Shown here: positions 5,575 to 14,640 of the stretch, one piece after another
How the letters are laid out: every line of letters begins with the position of its first letter
How positions within the stretch are numbered: the stretch's first letter is position 1
Source of the DNA: Planctomycetia bacterium
GTDB taxonomy: Bacteria > Planctomycetota > Planctomycetia > Pirellulales > UBA1268
Assembly: GCA_021414115.1 (NCBI GenBank)
Contig: JAIOPD010000071.1
Location: 1-64,000 of the forward strand
Length of the DNA stretch: 64,000 nt
Reading direction: 5' to 3'
The notes under the pieces: model-generated
What the model saw: the letters and a program-made list of their open reading frames with translations, nothing else
What the model was told of the DNA's origin: nothing
The model's database searches: none
Translations under genes and position numbers: made by a program

Positions 5575-6429
5575 ATGCATACTGCTGGCGGAGTAAAGAC
5601 AGAACCCGTGCAAAACCACGAACGCCGCAGCCGTTTGCTCGACCTCGTCCGCGTCCGCGGATTTGCCGCGCTGGAGGAACTGGTGCGGGAACTGGGCGTC
5701 TCCGAATCGACGGTTCGGCGTGACCTCGACGCCCTCGAGGAGCAGGGCTCCGCGCGGCGAACTCATGGCGGCGTGCTCTATGCCGGCGGCATGCCGCGGC
5801 TGGCCGAGTTTGACGAGCGGCAACCCGCCCATTGGGCCGCCAAGCGGGCCATCGCTGCCAAGGCCGCCGCGCTCATCGGCGACGGCGAGACCGTCCTTCT
5901 CGACGGCGGCACGACCACCTACGAGGTCGGCCGGCTGCTCGTGGGCCGGTCGCTCCAGGTCGTCACCAACAGTCTCCCCGTGGCCAACCTGTTCGCGTCG
6001 GAATCGCGAACCGACCTCGTGCTGCTCGGCGGCTACGTCTCGCCACGGACGGGAGTCTGCCTCGGACCGTACGCCAACGAGTTGCTCGGCCGACTCCATG
6101 TGACGACCACGGTGCTGTCGGCTGCCGGCATCGCCGACGAGGGGCTCTTCAACGCCCATCTTCTGCTCGCCGAAACCGAGCAGGCCATGCTCAAGGCCGC
6201 CGGGCGAGTGATCGTCGTGGCTGACAGTTCCAAGTTTGGCCACAAGAGCCTGACGCTCGTCTCCGCACTGGATGCCATCGACACCTACGTCTCCGACGAA
6301 GGCCTGCCTGAAGCGTGGCGGCAGAAAATCACTGCCGCCGGCTCCGAACTCGTCGTGGCTCAGGTTCCCGAGGCTGACGAGACCCAGCGACTCCCCGGCT
6401 CCCTCCCGACACGACGTCACCCCGCATGA
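5575..6429 (+). CDS. DeoR family transcriptional regulator of the microcompartment operon
   Basis: 284 aa. The N-terminal winged helix ([20 protein letters not shown], then [14 protein letters not shown]) is the DeoR DNA-binding signature. The rest is the DeoRC sugar-phosphate sensor domain ([35 protein letters not shown]). DeoR proteins usually repress sugar operons and respond to phosphorylated sugars, which fits a fucose/rhamnose-type microcompartment. The stop overlaps the pduL start as ATGA, so it is the first gene of the operon. A GTG at 5608 is an alternative start, since no clear ribosome site precedes 5575. Confidence 0.88.
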
Positions 6430-7145
6430 CCACCGACACCATGACCACACTTGCGTCTCCGTTCACCGGTTTCGACCGCACGTCCGTGGAACGGATCGTC
6501 CGCGAAATCGTCCTCGCATCCGCGTGCGTCCCGCCTTCCCGGACCACCGCGACCGCGCGGCAGGCCGAACCGAAACTCGTGGTGAGCATCTCGGCCCGGC
6601 ACTGCCATCTCACCGACGAGCACGTTGAAAAACTCTTCGGACCGGGCCGCAAGCTCACGCCGATGAAGGGGCTCTACCAGGACGGCTTCTACGCCGCCGA
6701 AGAGACCGTGATGCTCGTCGGGCCCAAACGGAAAATGCTCCCGACGGTCCGCGTGCTCGGGCCCACCCGCAAGGCATCCCAGGTGGAGCTCGCGTTTACC
6801 GACGGCATCTCGCTCGGGATCGATCTGCCGGTGCGGGCCAGCGGCAAGATCACGGGCACGCCGGGCTGCGTGCTCGTGGGCCCCGCCGGCGCCATCGAAC
6901 TCGCCGAAGGCGTGATCCGGGCCGAGCGGCATGTGCACATGAGCTTCGCCGACGCCGAGCATTTCGGCGTCAAGGATGGCGATCGCATGAGCCTGGCGAT
7001 CAAGGGCTCCTGCGGCACGGTCTTCCGCGACCTGCTCGTGCGGGCCGATGCCACGAGCAAGCTCGAGGTGCACATCGACACCGACGAGGGCAATGCCGCC
7101 GACCTCGACCACGCCGAGAGCGTGGAACTCGTGAGGCAGACATGA
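6426..7145 (+). CDS. pduL: PduL-type phosphate acyltransferase, microcompartment cargo
   Basis: 239 aa. PduL converts acyl-CoA plus phosphate to acyl-phosphate plus CoA inside catabolic microcompartments. Metal-binding histidines characteristic of the family are present: H-C-H in [12 protein letters not shown] in AERHVHMS, and the late His in [12 protein letters not shown]. The first 40 residues contain an amphipathic helix, [15 protein letters not shown], followed by a Thr/Ala/Pro-rich linker. That is the usual layout of an encapsulation peptide ahead of the two beta-barrel domains. It is coupled to deoR upstream by an ATGA overlap. In this locus the likely substrate is lactyl-CoA. Confidence 0.9.
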
Positions 7146-7240
7146 CGAAGAAGCGGGCCGCGCGGGCGAAGGCGTCCCGGCCGCGGCAGGCACAGACACG
7201 ACAAGACAAGACCGTTCAACCGGCGCGTGCCGGTGCGGTC

Positions 7241-7258
7241 GGCGGGGGCGGCCCCGCC
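7241..7258 (+). promoter_or_regulatory. GC stem-loop upstream of the first BMC-H gene
   Basis: A perfect 7-bp stem (GGCGGGG at 7241-7247, CCCCGCC at 7252-7258) with a 4-nt loop lies in the spacer between pduL and the first shell gene, about 40 nt before the shell start. There is no U-tract, so it is not a normal terminator. It may be an mRNA processing or stability element. Confidence 0.4.
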
Positions 7259-7297
7259 AAGGCTGGTTGGTTATTCGAGACAGGAGCGGTGCAACAG

Positions 7298-7582
7298 ATG
7301 GCCAAAAACGTCGAAGCCCTCGGGATGATCGAGGTGAAGGGGTTCGTCACGCTCGTCGAAGCGGTCGACGCGATGATGAAGGCGGCGAACGTGACCTTCA
7401 TGGGTTGGGACAAGATCGGCAGCGGACTCGTCACGGCATTCGTGTCGGGCGACGTGGCCGCAGTGAAGGCGGCGACCGACGCGGGTGCGGCGGCCGGCGG
7501 CCGGATCGGCGAGGTCGTGAGTGTGCAGGTGATCGCGCGTCCGCACGAGGATCTGCAGATCGTGCTGCCCGTGGGCGGCTGA
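7298..7582 (+). CDS. BMC-H hexameric microcompartment shell protein 1
   Basis: 94 aa with a single Pf00936-type BMC domain: [21 protein letters not shown], then the central pore stretch [19 protein letters not shown] and the closing VIARPHEDL. Hexamers of such proteins tile the facets of the shell. An AGGAG site at 7282-7286 supports the ATG at 7298. The frame also runs back to an ATG at 7142 that overlaps the pduL stop (ATGA), which would add a 52-residue basic, Gly/Ala-rich extension. That stretch contains rare codons for this genome (TTA, ACA), so I favour the shorter form. Confidence 0.9.
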
Positions 7583-7602: not shown

Positions 7603-7689
7603 GGCTTTCTCTGAACTTCATTGAATCGTTTCATTTCGTTCTTTCACGGTTTTCTTTTTCACAGTTTCTTTCTCTCACAGGGACATCAG

Positions 7690-7959
7690 ATGAACACGGC
7701 GATCGGACTATTGGAGACCAAGGGACTCGTGGGCCTCATCGAGGCCACCGACGCGATGGCCAAGGCGGCCAACGTGAAGATTCTCAAGCGGGTGAGCATC
7801 GGCAACGCCTACGTGGCGACGGTCGTGCAGGGTGACGTGGGCAGCGTGCGTGCGGCCGTCGAGGCCGGTGCCAACGCGGCCCAGCAGGTTGGCGAACTGA
7901 TCGCCAGCCACGTGATCCCGCGTCCGGCCGACACCCTCGTGGCCTCGTTCTTCAGCTGA
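7690..7959 (+). CDS. BMC-H hexameric microcompartment shell protein 2
   Basis: 89 aa, a minimal BMC domain: AIGLLETKGLVGLIEATDAM, pore segment KRVSIGNAYVATVVQGDVGSV, ending VIPRPADTLVASFF. The two BMC-H paralogues differ at the pore loop (DKIGSG versus RVSIGNA), so their hexamers should have different pores. The ATG at 7690 follows CAGGGACATCAG. The 107-bp leader is T/C-rich, unlike every other junction in the operon, which suggests separate control of the dose of this major shell component. Confidence 0.92.
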   Translation: MNTAIGLLETKGLVGLIEATDAMAKAANVKILKRVSIGNAYVATVVQGDVGSVRAAVEAGANAAQQVGELIASHVIPRPADTLVASFFS

Positions 7960-8017
7960 TGTCATGCCGGCACGGCCCCTCGTGGCCCGTGCCGGCGTGG
8001 CGTTCAGGGAAACCCAC

Positions 8018-9256
8018 ATGAAAATCCTCGTCGCCAATCTCGGCTCCACCAGCTTCAAGTACCGGCTCTTCGACCTGCCCGACACGGCAGGCGATGCCGG
8101 TGCGGAGCGGGAGCTTGCGCGTGGCGGTGTGGAGCGGATCGGCGCGGCCGAAAGCCGGGTGTACGCCAGCGTCGGCGGCCGGGCGATCGAGACGGTCATG
8201 CCGGTGCCCGACCACGCCGTCGCCCTCCAGGCGGCCCTCGAGCAACTGACGGCCGAGGGTGGACCGCTGAAGAGCGTCGATGAGGTGGCGGCGGTCGGCT
8301 TCAAGGCCGTGCACGGCGGTCGCGCGGGCGGCGTCGTGCGGGTGGGCCCTGATGTCCTCGCCGCCATGGAAGAGATGGCCGCCGTGGCCCCGGCGCATAA
8401 TCCGCCCTATGTGCGGGCGATGCGTTTGCTCGGGGAACGGATGCCGGGGGTGCCGCTCGTCGCTGCATTCGAGACGGGCTTTCATGCGACCATCCCCGAC
8501 AGAAACGCGCTCTACGCGGTGCCGACCGAGTGGGTCGAGAAGCATCTCGTGCGGCGCTGGGGATTTCATGGGGCAAGCCATCGCTTCGTGGCGGAACGGC
8601 TCGAGGCACTCGTGCCCTCGGCTGCAAAGCCCCAGCGGGCGATCTCCTGTCACCTCGGTGGCTCGAGCAGCGTCTGCTGGATCAGAGACGGTAAGAGTGT
8701 GGGCACGTCGATGGGAATGAGCCCGCAGTCGGGCCTGCCCCAGAACAACCGAGCCGGCGACTTCGATCCCTTCGCCCTCCTCCATGTGGCGAAGCAGACG
8801 GGCCGCGGCTTCGAGGACCTGCTCGGAGAACTCTCGGGGCAGGCCGGCCTCGCCGGCATGTCGGGCACGACCGGCGACATGCGTGATCTCGAGGAGGCGG
8901 CCGCGGCGGGGAGCAGTCGGGCCCGGACGGCGATCGACGTCTACGTGGCGTCGATCCGTCATTGGCTGGGCGGAGGCATCGTGGAGCTCGGCGGTCTCGA
9001 CGCCATCGGCTTCGCGGGGGGCATCGGCGAAAACTCGCCGCTCACGCGGGCCGCGGTGCTCGCTGGCCTCGAGGATCTCGGGATCGTGATCGACGCCACG
9101 AAGAACGACGCCAAGGCATCCGGCGAACGGCCGATCCATGCCGCCTCGTCGCGGGTCGCCGTGTGGGTGATTCCCACGAATGAAGAACTGATCGTCGCCC
9201 GGCAGGCGCGTGACCTGCTGGCGGACCGCGAAGACAAGAACGGGAAAGGTGCCTGA
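8018..9256 (+). CDS. ackA: acetate kinase family, probable acyl-phosphate to acid kinase
   Basis: 412 aa. It regenerates ATP from acyl-phosphate (acetyl- or, here, probably lactyl-phosphate). Family motifs: [16 protein letters not shown] at the N-terminus, LAPLHNP-like [36 protein letters not shown] and [12 protein letters not shown]. The usual MGTRSGDIDP segment is replaced by [10 protein letters not shown], so it is a divergent member and may differ in substrate. The ATG at 8018 follows CAGGGAAACC. The stop shares bases with the next start (TGATG). It has no recognisable encapsulation peptide and may act outside the shell. Confidence 0.88.
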
Positions 9257-9582
9257 TGTTCGTCGCCCTCGTGACCGGCTCCGTGGTGGCCACGCAGAAG
9301 ACCGAGTCGATGACCGGCCACAGGCTGCTCGTCGTCGAGCCCTACCGGCTCGACGAAAAGACGCGGTCGAAGCTCGTTTCGACGGGCCGCACCTTCATCG
9401 CCGTCGACACGCTGGGCGCCGGCGAGGGGCAGTTCGTCCTCGTCACGCAGGGCTCGAGCGCCCGCCTGACCCCCGAAACCAAATCCCTTCCCATCGACGC
9501 CGTGGTGATCGGCCTGGTCGACACCGTCCGCGTCGAGGGCACCGAAGTCTTCAGCAGAAAAGGAATGGAGCCCAACGCATGA
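9256..9582 (+). CDS. BMC-P (EutN/CcmL) pentameric vertex protein 1
   Basis: 108 aa. The N-terminal [28 protein letters not shown] and C-terminal [14 protein letters not shown] are the signature strands of the EutN/CcmL family, whose pentamers cap the twelve vertices of a microcompartment. The middle [17 protein letters not shown] is also typical. It overlaps ackA upstream (TGATG) and the aldehyde dehydrogenase downstream (ATGA), so translation is coupled. It is the first of three paralogues in this operon. Confidence 0.92.
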
Positions 9583-11066
9583 GCACCGCCTCCGCCCCCG
9601 ACATTGCCGCGATCGTCCGCCAGGTGATCGCCGAGATCACCAACAGCACGCCGAAGCCGGCCGCCTCCCCCGCCCCGTCGCTGGCTCCGGCCGCCGGCGG
9701 CTCGTTCGTCGGCGCCAACGGCGTTTTTGGCAACGTCGACGAGGCCGTCCGCGCCGCCACCGAGGCCTTCGAGCAGCTCGAGCGACTCGGCGTCGAGGGC
9801 CGCCGCCGGGCGATCACCCACGTGCGGCGGATCGCGATCGACGACGCCGAGGAACTCGGCCGCATGGAGTTTGCCGAGACGAAAATCGGCCGGCTCGACC
9901 ACAAGATCGGGAAGCTCAAGGTGCTCGGCGAGAAGGTGCCGGGCGTCGAGTTCATGCAGAGCGAGGTGTTCAGCGGTGATCACGGCCTGGCCGTGATCGA
10001 GCACGCCCCGTTTGGCGTCATCGGCGCGATCACACCCGTCACCCATTCGCTTCCCACGATCGCCTGCAACGCGATCAACATGATCGCCGGCGGCAACACC
10101 GTGGTGGTCAACCCGCACCCGAGCGGCCGGAAGGTGGCGGCCGAGGGCGTCCGCCGGTTCAACGCGGCCATCCACCGCGACATCGGCATCGACAACCTGA
10201 TCTCGCTCGTCGCCGAGCCCTCGCTCGAATCGGCCGGCGCGCTCTTCAACCACCGCGGCGTCAAGCTGATCTGCGTGACCGGCGGGCCCGCGGTCGCCAA
10301 GGCGGCGCTCCAGTCGAGCAAGCGAGCGATCGTGGCCGGCCCCGGCAACCCGCCGGTGGTCGTGGACGAAACCGCCGACCTCGACAACGCGGCCCGATCG
10401 ATCATCGCCGGCGCGGCGTATGACAACAATCTGCTCTGCATCGGCGAGAAGCAGGTGTTCGTGGTCGCGAGTGTGTTCGACCGAATGATGGCCGCGATGG
10501 AACGGGCGGGCGGCCTGCGACTCTCCGCCCAACAGGTCGATGCCCTGACGAAGCGGGCCATCGTGATGACCGGCGAGGGCACGCACCGTCACTGGGTGCC
10601 CTGCAAGGATCTCCTCGGCCAGGACGCCTCGCTGCTCGCCAAAGCGGCAGGCGCGGCGGGCCGCGACGGCCTCGAACTCGTCTTCGGTGAGACCGACAAC
10701 GACAACCCGTTCGTGCCGACCGAGCAGATGATGCCCTTCCTGCCGTTCGTTCGCTGCAAGGACGCCGACGAGGCGATCCGTCTGGCTCACGAGAGCGAAC
10801 ACGGCTTCCGCCACACGGCGATCATCCACTCCAACGACGTCCGCACCATGACGAAGATGGGCCGGCTTCTCGACACCACGCTGTTCGTGAAGAACGGCCC
10901 GAGCGTCGCAGGCCTCGGCCTCGGCGGCGAGGGCTACCTGTCGTTTTCGATCGCCACGCCGACGGGCGAGGGCGTCACCACCCCACTCACGTTCACCCGG
11001 CAGCGGCGCTGCACGCTGGTTGACGATCTCCGGATCCTCGGCAGCGCGTCGGCCGTCCGCTCGTGA
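9579..11066 (+). CDS. CoA-acylating aldehyde dehydrogenase (PduP/EutE-like), microcompartment cargo
   Basis: 495 aa. It oxidises an aldehyde (here likely lactaldehyde) with NAD+ and CoA to the acyl-CoA. The catalytic cysteine is Cys287 in [11 protein letters not shown], and the NAD-binding fold contains [15 protein letters not shown] and [12 protein letters not shown]. Residues 6-20 ([15 protein letters not shown]) form an amphipathic encapsulation-peptide helix followed by a Pro/Ala linker, as in PduP. The start at 9579 overlaps the vertex-protein stop (ATGA). The open frame extending further upstream is a shadow of ackA and the vertex gene. Its product should pass to PduL. Confidence 0.92.
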
Positions 11067-11137: not shown

Positions 11138-11401
11138 ATGCAACTGGCCCGGATCATCGGCACGGCCACCGCGACGATCAAGCACCGTTCGCTCACCGGC
11201 GCGCGGCTGATCGTCGTGCAGCCGCTGATGGCCGACCGCCAGTCGCCGGACGGCGACCCCCAGATCGCCGTCGACACGATGGCGGCGGCAGTCGGCGACA
11301 CGGTCGTGATCACGAGCGACGGCCGACTGCTCCGGGAGATTCTCAAGAGCGACGCCACCCCCGCCCGCTGGAGCACCATCGCCCTGGTTGACACCCCATG
11401 A
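11138..11401 (+). CDS. BMC-P (EutN/CcmL) pentameric vertex protein 2
   Basis: 87 aa: MQLARIIGTATATIKHRSL, LIVVQPLMAD, VDTMAAAVGDTVVITSDGR and the final WSTIALVD are the standard EutN/CcmL elements. The start at 11138 is set by homology, as the ribosome site is weak. The preceding 71 bp form a C-rich spacer with short direct repeats (GATTCCC, CCCAGA/CCCAGC), the only such spacer in the operon. The 3' end overlaps the next gene as ATGA. Confidence 0.9.
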   Translation: MQLARIIGTATATIKHRSLTGARLIVVQPLMADRQSPDGDPQIAVDTMAAAVGDTVVITSDGRLLREILKSDATPARWSTIALVDTP

Positions 11402-12153
11402 ACACGCCCCCACTCGACGCCGCCGCGGTGCAGGCCCTCGTCGCCGAGGTCATCCGCCGCATCGGCGCGACGCAGCCCGCTCTTCAGCGAGCGCCCGCCT
11501 CGGCATCGCTCCCCGCCGCCCAGCCCGTTTCAGCCACGATTCCGGGCTTCACGATCATCGAGCGGGTGGTCACGCTCGCTCATCTGGAACGGGTGCCGAC
11601 GGGCGTGAGCCGGGTCATGATCCATGCCAGCGCGGTGATCACGCCCTCGGCTCGGGACCGCGCGAAGGAGACGGGGATTGTGTTTGTTCGCGGCTCGGGG
11701 GCCACGCCGACCGCGACCGCCGGCCGGCCGTTCATGATCGCTCAGGCCGCCTGCCACAGTGACGCCTCCGGACGCGCCGCCGCAATCTCCCGTGCCATCC
11801 CTCACGCGCAGCACCTGCCGTCGTCAGGGCTCGCCGACGTGATCACGGCGCTGGCCGTGCATGCGTCGAAGGACGCGGCCCGCGGCGTGCTTCTAACCGG
11901 CCGGCCGGCGGTCGCCGTGATCCTCGCCAATCGTTCCGCGAGCCTGCGGGCGGTCACGGCCCGGGATGCCGCGAGCCTTGCCGCCGCTGCCACCGATGCC
12001 GCCGCGAATCTGCTCGTCGTCGACCCGGCCGCGTTCCCGGCCGCGGCGCTCGAACGGCTCTGCGCCGAGTTCAACCGCACACCGTCTCCGATAGTGCCCG
12101 CGGAACTCGCCGCCGCCCCCGCCGGCTGTGGCTGCAAGACCCACACGCACTGA
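11398..12153 (+). CDS. microcompartment-associated protein, putative RpiB/LacAB-like fold with encapsulation peptide
   Basis: 251 aa, without a confident family name. Residues 5-23 (LDAAAVQALVAEVIRRIGA) look like an encapsulation helix with a Pro/Ala linker, as in the other cargo enzymes. The middle has VSRVMIHASAVITPSARDRA followed by ETGIVFVR. The C-terminal half, GVLLTGRPAVAVILANR through DAAANLLVVDP, parallels the RpiB/LacAB sugar-phosphate isomerase core (G-x-L-x-x-G-x-G...AN...R...NL), but the cysteine of the RpiB CGTG loop is absent. The tail GCGCKTHTH could bind metal. It may be a structural cargo protein or a modified isomerase. The fold assignment is my inference. Confidence 0.6.
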   Translation: MNTPPLDAAAVQALVAEVIRRIGATQPALQRAPASASLPAAQPVSATIPGFTIIERVVTLAHLERVPTGVSRVMIHASAVITPSARDRAKETGIVFVRGSGATPTATAGRPFMIAQAACHSDASGRAAAISRAIPHAQHLPSSGLADVITALAVHASKDAARGVLLTGRPAVAVILANRSASLRAVTARDAASLAAAATDAAANLLVVDPAAFPAAALERLCAEFNRTPSPIVPAELAAAPAGCGCKTHTH

Positions 12154-12187: not shown

Positions 12188-12469
12188 ATGCGACTTGGCA
12201 AAACCATCGGCACGGTGACGCTCGTCGAACCCCATCCCACGATGCGGGGCGGCGTGCTGCGGCTCGTCGTGCCTCTGGCCACGGACGACCTCTCCGCCGG
12301 CGACGGACCGGCCGAGCCGCTCGTCGCCTGGGACGACCTCGGTGCCGGTGACGACCAACTGGTGGCATTCAGCGAGGGGGGCGAGGCGGCTCAGCCGTTT
12401 CGGCCTGACGACAAGCCCGTCGATGCCTACATCGCAGCCCTGATCGACCGCCTGGAGATCCCGTCATGA
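12188..12469 (+). CDS. BMC-P (EutN/CcmL) pentameric vertex protein 3
   Basis: 93 aa: MRLGKTIGTVTLVEPHPTM, LRLVVPL, WDDLGAGDDQLVAFSEG and VDAYIAALIDRLEI. It retains the EutN/CcmL strand order but is more diverged than the other two (VDAYIAALID replaces the usual V-x-x-I-V-x-x-VD). The ATG at 12188 follows GAGAGGATCGACCCC. Three vertex paralogues in one operon is typical of the planctomycete-type locus and implies that the vertices are not all equivalent. The stop overlaps the next small ORF (ATGA). Confidence 0.88.
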   Translation: MRLGKTIGTVTLVEPHPTMRGGVLRLVVPLATDDLSAGDGPAEPLVAWDDLGAGDDQLVAFSEGGEAAQPFRPDDKPVDAYIAALIDRLEIPS

Positions 12470-12634: not shown

Positions 12635-13537
<903 letters not shown>

Positions 13538-13707: not shown

Positions 13708-14640
13708 ATGAAGGTTGGCATCATTGGCGGCGGCGGGATTGTCGGCTCTTCGGCGGGCTTCGCGCTCCAAGTCGGCGGCCTCGTCCACGAGATCGTGATC
13801 GTCGACGCCAATGCCGACCTGGCCGATGGTCAGGCACTCGACATGCTGCACGGCTCGCCGGCGATCGCCGATCAGGTGATCCACGCGGGCGGCTACGAGG
13901 CCCTCGCCGACGCCGACGTGATCTGCATCACCGCCGGCTTGCGGCGGAAGCCCGACGAGAGCCGACTGGCGCTCATCAACCGCAACGTCGTGCTCTTCCG
14001 GTCGATCCTGGGCGACATCAAGGCGAAGGGCATGAAGCCCGATGCGATCGTGCTCGTCGTCTCCAATCCGGTCGACATCCTCACCTACCTCGCCGAGAAG
14101 GAACTGAACCTTCCCCAGGGCCGCGTGATCGGCCTCGGCACGCTGCTCGACACACTCCGGTTCCGCAGTCTCCTCGCCATGAACCTCAAGGCCCCCGCCA
14201 CGCAGGTGCAGGCGATGATTCTGGGCGAACACGGCGACAGCATGGTTCCCGTCTGGAGCAGCGCCAGCGTCGCCGGCCTGCCGCTCGAGAAGTATCCGGG
14301 CTTCACCCAGAAACTCGGGGCCGACGTCTTCCAGCGGGCGAAGACCTCGGGCGCCGAGATGATCAAGAAGAAGACCGGCGCCGGCTTCGCCGTGGGCGTC
14401 TCGATCGCCGAAGTGATCCATGCGATCACGCTCGACTCGAAGCGGGTGCTCCCGGTGTCGACCGTCCAAACCGGCTGCTACGGGATTCGCGATGTGGCGC
14501 TCTCCGTGCCCACCATCGTGGGCGGCGCAGGCGCCGAGAAGACGCTCGAAATCGACCTCTGGCCGAAAGAGGTGCAGGCACTGAAGGCCAGCGCCGGCGT
14601 CCTCCAGAAAACGCTCGGCGACGTGCTCGCTTCGGCCTGA
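13708..14640 (+). CDS. lactate/malate dehydrogenase family protein
   Basis: 310 aa with the NAD-binding GGGGIVGSSAGFAL, the conserved NPVDILTYL, and the catalytic histidine in LGEHGDSMVPVWS. It is the last gene of the microcompartment operon, where it would recycle NADH/NAD+ for the aldehyde dehydrogenase by interconverting a 2-hydroxy acid and a 2-oxo acid. In the substrate-specificity loop (ITAGLRRKPDESR) the position that is Gln in lactate dehydrogenases reads Arg, as in malate dehydrogenases, so the substrate is uncertain. It is convergent with the kinase gene, leaving only 6 bp between the stops. Confidence 0.87.
   Translation: MKVGIIGGGGIVGSSAGFALQVGGLVHEIVIVDANADLADGQALDMLHGSPAIADQVIHAGGYEALADADVICITAGLRRKPDESRLALINRNVVLFRSILGDIKAKGMKPDAIVLVVSNPVDILTYLAEKELNLPQGRVIGLGTLLDTLRFRSLLAMNLKAPATQVQAMILGEHGDSMVPVWSSASVAGLPLEKYPGFTQKLGADVFQRAKTSGAEMIKKKTGAGFAVGVSIAEVIHAITLDSKRVLPVSTVQTGCYGIRDVALSVPTIVGGAGAEKTLEIDLWPKEVQALKASAGVLQKTLGDVLASA

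Follow-up and report, generated by a model that had tools for sequence, protein, structure and literature searches.

The window analysed here, a stretch of 64,000 nucleotides from a planctomycete (contig JAIOPD010000071.1), carries a microcompartment locus of the PVM type, in which the class II aldolase, the aldehyde dehydrogenase (AldDH), PduL, AckA, the DeoR-type regulator, the lactate/malate dehydrogenase-type (LDH-type) gene and the BMC-H and BMC-P shell genes that define such loci are all present. PVM loci are described as serving the degradation of L-fucose and L-rhamnose via a class II aldolase of this kind (PMC4207490). The genes run from the regulator to the LDH-type gene in the following order:

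5575..6429 (+): DeoR-type regulator, identified from its sequence and from descriptions of PVM loci, with matches in other such loci
6426..7145 (+): PduL phosphotransacylase with an N-terminal helix (PF06130, 5.7e-72)
7142..7582 (+): BMC-H shell protein (PF00936, 1.6e-25)
7621..7959 (+): BMC-H shell protein (PF00936, 1.3e-25)
7964..9256 (+): acetate kinase (TIGR00016, 5.2e-98)
9256..9582 (+): BMC-P shell pentamer 1 (PF03319, 2.8e-27)
9579..11066 (+): AldDH with an N-terminal helix (NF011927, 1.1e-181)
11138..11401 (+): BMC-P shell pentamer 2 (PF03319, 1.4e-20 for a longer frame)
11398..12153 (+): gene X, 251 amino acids, encapsulation-type helix, ITP module and RpiB-like pseudoenzyme
12188..12469 (+): BMC-P shell pentamer 3 (PF03319, 5.2e-17 for a longer frame)
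12635..13537 (+): class II aldolase with a C-terminal helix, the PVM signature enzyme (PF00596, 1.5e-49)
13708..14640 (+): LDH-type gene, named from its sequence and PVM descriptions and matched in other PVM loci

The ATG start codon of gene X overlaps the TGA stop codon of the upstream pentamer gene, BMC-P2. An AlphaFold2 model of its product, built with 30 aligned homologues (mean pLDDT 78.6, pTM 0.55), comprises a helix (residues 8-24), a disordered segment (residues 25-48), a small domain (residues 49-98) and, after a short loop, a Rossmann-like domain (residues 110-228). The small domain, to which we refer as the ITP module, had been overlooked in an earlier sequence-only reading of this DNA; here it is confidently predicted, with ten-residue pLDDT means of 85-96 across residues 51-100. 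The parts of gene X are:

11416..11469 (+): N-terminal encapsulation-type helix, residues 7-24 (AlphaFold2 helix 8-24; dN/dS 0.05)
11470..11541 (+): flexible linker, residues 25-48 (pLDDT <50; dN/dS 0.75)
11542..11691 (+): ITP module, residues 49-98, beta-alpha-beta-alpha-beta (structure prediction and profile matches)
11725..12081 (+): RpiB-fold domain without catalytic residues, residues 110-228 (Foldseek, VIA and alignment; dN/dS 0.09)
11884..11934 (+): GVLLTGRPAVAVILANR, residues 163-179, degenerate catalytic loop and retained ANR (alignment)
12124..12150 (+): Cys/His tail GCGCKTHTH, residues 243-251, lineage-specific (2 of 30 members)

The motifs named in the sequence-only reading, an RpiB/LacAB pattern ending in ANR, NLLVVDP (residues 204-210) and GCGCKTHTH, are all present in the ORF where it had placed them. 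The N-terminal encapsulation-type helix that it had proposed corresponds to the predicted helix, which a flexible linker follows and which looks like an encapsulation peptide; the hydrophobic moment of this helix exceeds that of shuffled sequences (p<0.05) in 20 of 29 members, though not significantly in the window's own copy (p 0.12). Terminal helices resembling that of X are also seen by eye in PduL, in AldDH and at the C-terminus of the aldolase from the same locus. The Cys/His tail, which had been taken to hint at a metal, is real but is a lineage-specific ending, shared by just two of the 30 members, the window's copy and its 83% relative; we found no support for metal binding and rejected such a tail as a feature of the family. 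A PPxGxCTGDYSKF-like motif lies between the helix and the ITP module in the X proteins of four loci (L019, L029, L104 and L105); no ORF of the fetched loci other than X was found to carry it.

An RpiB fold without its catalytic residues

When used as a single sequence, X stays below the curated thresholds of the isomerase families: it matches PF02502 with an E-value of 0.018 (15.5 bits against a gathering cut-off of 24.7) and TIGR02133 with one of 0.0062, likewise below cut-off. Nineteen of the 30 family members match PF02502 at E<=0.1 (best 1.1e-6), and a profile of the family retrieves RpiBs from the PDB from an E-value of 2.5e-4 on. The first 45 Foldseek matches of the X model are all of the RpiB/LacAB type (best E 3.6e-5), annotated as RpiB, as galactose-6-phosphate isomerase or, in two entries lying among them (4u8f), as uronate ketol-isomerase. 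With VIA-align, X superimposes on RpiB with a Z-score of 17.8 over 119 residues at 1.8 A, and the first unrelated structure follows at 9.6. The likeness of X to RpiB is thus beyond chance, and the fold that had been proposed from the letters alone is borne out; a predicted fold unrelated to RpiB, named in advance as the observation that would speak against it, was not what the structural comparison returned.

In RpiB enzymes, a Cys (or Asp or Gly variants with a Gly-rich loop) and the Asp-His and His-Asn pairs are catalytic, and the terminal RHxxR motif binds phosphate. We aligned these positions in 31 canonical sequences, 22 SPU-type sequences (see below) and 47 PVM-type sequences, the latter consisting of 34 main copies and 13 from family f6; 13 of the 15 f6 loci were used, and two near-copies (L124 and L134) were left out. 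The Asp-His of the DHxG motif is found in 31/31 canonical and 22/22 SPU-type sequences. His-Asn is complete in both groups, as is RHxxR except for a single Lys. The position of the catalytic Cys is occupied by Cys in 27 and Gly in four canonical sequences and by Asp in all 22 SPU-type sequences. None of the eight catalytic and phosphate-binding residues is kept in 42 of the 47 PVM-type copies, and the other five (L024, L101, L126, L132 and L133) keep one each. The alignment places the TGRP of the window on the CGTG loop, as the sequence-only reading had it. Across the 34 main PVM copies the Cys position reads Ala (14), Thr (10), Val (4), Ser (3), Cys (1), Glu (1) or Gly (1), and the RHxxR columns are gaps in the X of the window and in 29 to 33 of these 34 copies. 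Two features of the domain persist: Asn and Arg of the ANR motif are present in 34/34 main PVM copies, with erosion in f6 (Asn in 2/13), and a later Asn is kept in 33/34 main and 13/13 f6 copies. Catalysis by the RpiB mechanism is not expected in X because these residues are lost. We also rejected X as the RpiB serving the pentose pathway of this genome, which possesses a separate RpiB (G000:C115:32729-33142).

The loss of the active site does not reflect local decay of the gene. Comparison of the window with its 83% relative (L001) gave dN/dS values of 0.05 (helix), 0.75 (linker), 0.23 (ITP module), 0.09 (RpiB-like part) and 0.25 (tail), which come from a Nei-Gojobori script applied to one pair of sequences with small counts. 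The RpiB-like part is, judged from these substitution counts, under purifying selection in the lineage of the window; it is more constrained than the ITP module and is therefore not mere ballast. The description of X as a decayed isomerase consequently fails in the sense of local decay, given that the catalytic residues are lost family-wide and the domain is constrained, and pseudogene decay of X was rejected on the same grounds.

Distribution of gene X and its SPU-type relatives

The X sequence of the window alone matches 44 of the 392 sampled genomes of the phylum. With the X profile, the gene was detected in 38 of the 40 sampled genomes that belong to the order or class of the window; in G274 it has a short form. 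BMC-P genes are present in 39 of these 40 genomes, and the remaining one (G361) lacks both BMC-P and X. The genome searches, including that for the ITP described below, scored only the candidates ranked highest in a permissive first pass (at most 6, 7 and 17 per genome), so that absences are not strict. In all 11 fetched PVM loci that have X (L001 and L101-L110), the gene lies between BMC-P2 and BMC-P3. One genome with BMC-P genes (G377) gave no X in the search; in its locus (L100), which is otherwise complete, BMC-P2 abuts BMC-P3. This genome belongs to genus g24, in which the profile search found no X in 3/3 genomes and in which L100 is the one locus read. X is therefore dispensable. Ten f6 genomes are without X; the locus of G377 is the one read among them, and the other nine may have no PVM locus. 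Locus L100 also contains an additional BMC-H-like ORF (5841-6152). In a further genus (g5), X ends just after the ITP module in four of five genomes and BMC-P3 follows directly; in the fifth (L118) the region is interrupted by a run of N, and both flanks read alike. The helix and the ITP module can therefore stand alone. The g5 locus that was read (L103) retains aldolase and AldDH. One short-form sequence (L015) was left out of the alignment of 30 members (A1).

Proteins in which an ITP module precedes an RpiB domain with a nearly intact active site occur in other planctomycete classes, from which 22 loci were fetched (L074-L093, L098 and L113). The ITP module was found in 21 of these 22 RpiBs, in seven of them only by an iterated profile, and an encapsulation-like helix is seen by eye before the ITP in 19 of the 21 (absent in L077 and L086). 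The RpiB gene has BMC-P genes on both sides in 15 of the 22 loci and, in one locus where the contig ends, on a single side; in six, none lies in the fetched stretch. The exception without ITP is L098; there, the module stands directly before a triosephosphate isomerase domain (L098:1934-2095, forward strand), beside BMC-P genes and next to the RpiB that lacks it. Two of the loci were scanned, and in both a nucleoside phosphorylase is encoded along with a DeoC aldolase; the remaining loci are assigned to the SPU type by their similarity. SPU loci are defined by the pair of DeoC and RpiB (PMC8217296). In all 22 SPU-type RpiBs the catalytic Cys is replaced by Asp (DGxG instead of CGTG) and the other catalytic residues are kept; to judge from these residues, they are possibly carboxylate-based isomerases.

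For a tree of RpiB domains, sequences at least 80% identical to a retained one were dropped, and 87 of 100 were kept. In this tree the PVM copies make up one side of a branch (support 100/100, length 2.74), the canonical RpiBs form another (94/92), and the SPU copies are unresolved where the PVM branch attaches. Gene X shares with the SPU-type RpiBs the order of an ITP module before an RpiB domain, in most cases the helix before the ITP, and a seat among BMC-P genes (15/22). The two differ in their active sites: Asp-His, His-Asn and RHxxR are retained in the SPU-type proteins, where Asp replaces Cys, and are lost in X. X most likely descends from an ITP-RpiB enzyme of deoxyribose-phosphate (SPU-type) compartments, a course that the tree fits without proving and whose direction is inferred; the case for it rests mainly on the shared domain order and gene position because the PVM branch is very long. 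The notion of an enzyme recruited to the lumen thus needs to be modified insofar as it implied a fresh cytosolic recruit, the likely source being an SPU-type RpiB that already possessed the ITP and mostly the helix.

The ITP module in microcompartment proteins

The ITP segment on its own is predicted to adopt a beta-alpha-beta-alpha-beta arrangement (pLDDT 87.9) and carries a nearly invariant TPxxxD motif. From 112 segments, those at least 75% identical to others were dropped (set A3), leaving 64 that were analysed together with that of the window. At E<=0.1, 50 of these 65 isolated segments match TIGR02536 (eut_hyp; best 1.6e-6), which we take to be a protein of Gram-positive-type eut operons; 24 and 15 match two PduM models (best 2.9e-4 and 3e-4), 14 match EutQ (best 0.0049) and three match EutT (best 0.0015). 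No other of 18,950 families was matched by more than two of the 65. Nearly all of these matches, including that of the window's segment to TIGR02536 (0.0029), are far below or below the curated cut-offs, and their weight lies in their agreement. Among the 30 full-length A1 members, 15 match TIGR02536, five PduM and three EutQ (NCBIfam, E<=0.1), with the matched region known for the window only. Within the known proteins, the ITP match lies at the N-terminus of EutQ (profile positions 1-62 at most), at the C-terminus of PduM (113-153 of 153) and at the C-terminus of TIGR02536 (about 153-206 of 207).

A profile built from the 64 planctomycete segments only, applied to the 307 ORFs of the E. coli eut region with the search space set to 4300, retrieves EutT (3e-7) and EutQ (2.7e-4), with the next ORF at an E-value of 22, and none of 5000 shuffles of the EutT or EutQ N-terminus reaches the real score. 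With an earlier, narrower profile, EutT and EutQ had reached only 0.013 and 0.62 within the set of that search. Pfam does not model this region separately, its domains starting at residue 85 of EutQ and residue 95 of EutT; among the 65 segments it reports the PduM-type family PDU_like in 11 (best 9.5e-5) and eight families once each. A module of about 50 residues is shared by EutQ, EutT, PduM, TIGR02536 and the planctomycete proteins. A literature search in which subscription papers were under-represented found no publication linking these proteins.

Searches for further relatives were negative within their scope. By sequence, the ITP gave nothing convincing against the PDB (best E 0.21, 1w4i); by fold, the module alone reached at best a Foldseek E-value of 0.43 and a VIA Z-score of 6.1 (the structures matched being mostly Cas1 N-domains, with RNA polymerase and eIF5B among the others), and no fold relative is claimed because such scores are within the range of common arrangements. 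The TIGR02536 and EutQ models have no match in the window's own genome. The X of the window does not match the NCBIfam PduM models, and a short-form X reaches 21 of 179 and 17.6 of 50 bits, without any individual stretch clearing the threshold. A weak resemblance, in permuted order, to the E3-binding domain of 2-oxoacid dehydrogenases (PF02817 in 5/65 segments, best 0.014) is probably due to chance. Residues 6-92 of E. coli EutQ (L043:19303-20004, reverse strand) match the NCBIfam EutA model NF007991 with 1.6e-9, perhaps a feature of that model.

Across the 392 genomes, the ITP (E<=1e-4) occurs in 111, of which 110 have BMC-P genes. Seen from the other side, 110 of the 124 genomes with BMC-P (E<=0.001) contain it, against one of the 268 without (G214, 67% complete). 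At E<=0.01, 115 genomes have both, nine the ITP alone and nine BMC-P alone. Because these same genomes supplied the sequences on which the profile was trained, and because they are not independent of one another, the odds ratio is not a probability; the near-absence of the ITP from BMC-negative genomes was not built in. Other partners of the module were noted as well. It is joined to an ACT domain in L095:4920-5525 (forward strand) and L097:3767-4318 (reverse strand) according to Pfam, and by eye in L096:4118-4786 and L111:4771-5340 (both reverse strand); the genes of L095, L096 and L111 lie beside BMC genes, and L097 is a short contig without one. In L099 and L111 the ITP adjoins short Cys-rich proteins.

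A candidate shell-core linker

By analogy with EutQ and PduM, we consider X to be, with fair probability, a non-catalytic assembly protein of the PVM compartment that links shell and core. Its N-terminal helix would join the enzyme core, its ITP module would dock on the shell from inside, a role also ascribed to the homologous N-terminus of EutQ, and its RpiB-fold domain would serve as a dimeric body, like the cupin in EutQ, perhaps with the capacity to bind a ligand. We favour this linker reading because X has the same two pieces, helix and ITP, as PduM. The RpiB-like part is too well kept to be ballast and must therefore do something, most simply dimerise and possibly bind a ligand. After a change of pathway, the isomerase activity would have died and the linker function stayed. 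The missing X in genus g24 speaks against a linker role, as does the window's own helix, which is not significantly amphipathic. The suggestion made from the letters alone that X might act as a scaffold agrees with such a putative role.

Three alternatives have to be weighed. X would be a sugar-phosphate sensor or allosteric regulator if its dead pocket bound fuculose- or rhamnulose-1-phosphate, DHAP or lactaldehyde-derived metabolites within the lumen and the helix and ITP only served to place it there; the strong constraint on the RpiB-like part and the retention of ANR and of the later Asn are in keeping with this idea, but the phosphate-binding RHxxR end is absent, ANR erodes in f6, and genus g5, whose read locus keeps aldolase and AldDH, no longer has the domain, so that we regard a sensor as unlikely. 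A mere passenger, that is, a once encapsulated SPU-type enzyme retained only via translational coupling to the pentamer genes, would accord with the start/stop overlap with BMC-P2, with the failure to find X in g24 and with its shortening in g5; dN/dS values of 0.05-0.25 outside the linker, the presence of X in 38/40 genomes of the order or class and the retention of the ITP in other BMC proteins with other partners argue against it and make it improbable. Least probable of all is an active enzyme that works by another mechanism or on another substrate, for instance an isomerase acting on lactaldehyde or on a deoxy-ketose phosphate: its family-wide conservation in the locus and the exchangeability of the catalytic Cys in the SPU relatives (Asp in 22/22) speak for it, but the Asp-His, His-Asn and phosphate residues were lost together, the loop is not conserved, no polar set besides ANR and one Asn stands out in the RpiB-like part, and g5 lost the whole domain.

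Beyond gene X as a candidate linker, we tentatively propose, with a little less than even confidence, that the ITP serves metabolosomes in general as a domain for docking on the shell and has come to be combined with many bodies (RpiB in live and in dead form, cupin, adenosyltransferase, ACT, triosephosphate isomerase or a bare encapsulation helix). On this view a single principle of linking shell and core would underlie EutQ, PduM, the TIGR02536 protein and the X of PVM loci, and X would be an enzyme that died and kept its docking tag. The shared module makes one common mechanism for fastening core to shell in metabolosomes testable, and PVM compartments gain a candidate linker. The data also suggest steps by which an enzyme may turn into an assembly part, being near-intact in SPU-type loci, dead in PVM loci, without its body in one genus and missing as a gene in another. 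The ITP could also be put to use in engineered compartments, as a folded tag for targeting, and would be of general interest if its docking were confirmed.

The literature examined reports no binding by an ITP module outside EutQ. EutQ without residues 9-41 stays with the cargo, and without residues 62-99 it stays with the shell (PMC12487888); deletions outside 9-41 also broke the shell-cargo association (PMC12487888). Removal of the first 100 residues abolished the pull-down with EutM, and the contact is argued to be on the likely cytosolic face of EutM (PMC4827028). Residues 1-99 of EutQ are described as four helices (PMC12487888); the ITP model presented here has strands too. Loss of PduM is reported to separate core and shell partly, the protein being needed for their full connection (PMC9132943, PMC12108088); in published work on cells without the N-terminus of PduB, PduM was seen with cargo and did not associate significantly with shell assemblies. 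The role of PduM and PduB as a shell-core link is disputed (PMC12108088), and because of this dispute and the result with the PduB N-terminus, shell docking is not established for PduM. According to the same source, published in 2025, no sequence homology of PduM is known beyond Pdu compartments (PMC12108088).

Like X, PduM possesses an N-terminal helix, described as a signal helix (PMC12108088), and an ITP match, here at its C-terminus; it differs in having no RpiB part and the ITP at its end. The TIGR02536 protein likewise bears a C-terminal ITP module. Gram-positive EutQ is without the first helices, which has been taken as a sign of a different assembly there (PMC12487888), and we infer from this absence that the TIGR02536 protein may supply the module in Gram-positive eut systems. 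EutT, a cobalamin adenosyltransferase, shares an N-terminal ITP (E. coli residues 1-46) with X; it differs in its enzyme body with the Pfam adenosyltransferase domain and, in E. coli, has no helix before the ITP. In EutQ, the ITP match covers E. coli residues 3-45 and, if the N-terminal numbering is equal, falls on the shell-associated residues 9-41 of the Salmonella protein, and its body, a cupin that mediates dimerisation and is dispensable for assembly (PMC12487888), parallels the part proposed here for the RpiB-fold domain. EutQ has its ITP at the very N-terminus, followed by helices that bind cargo peptides and by the cupin with acetate kinase activity; X, unlike EutQ, has an encapsulation-type helix before its ITP and a dead RpiB in the place of the C-terminal cupin.
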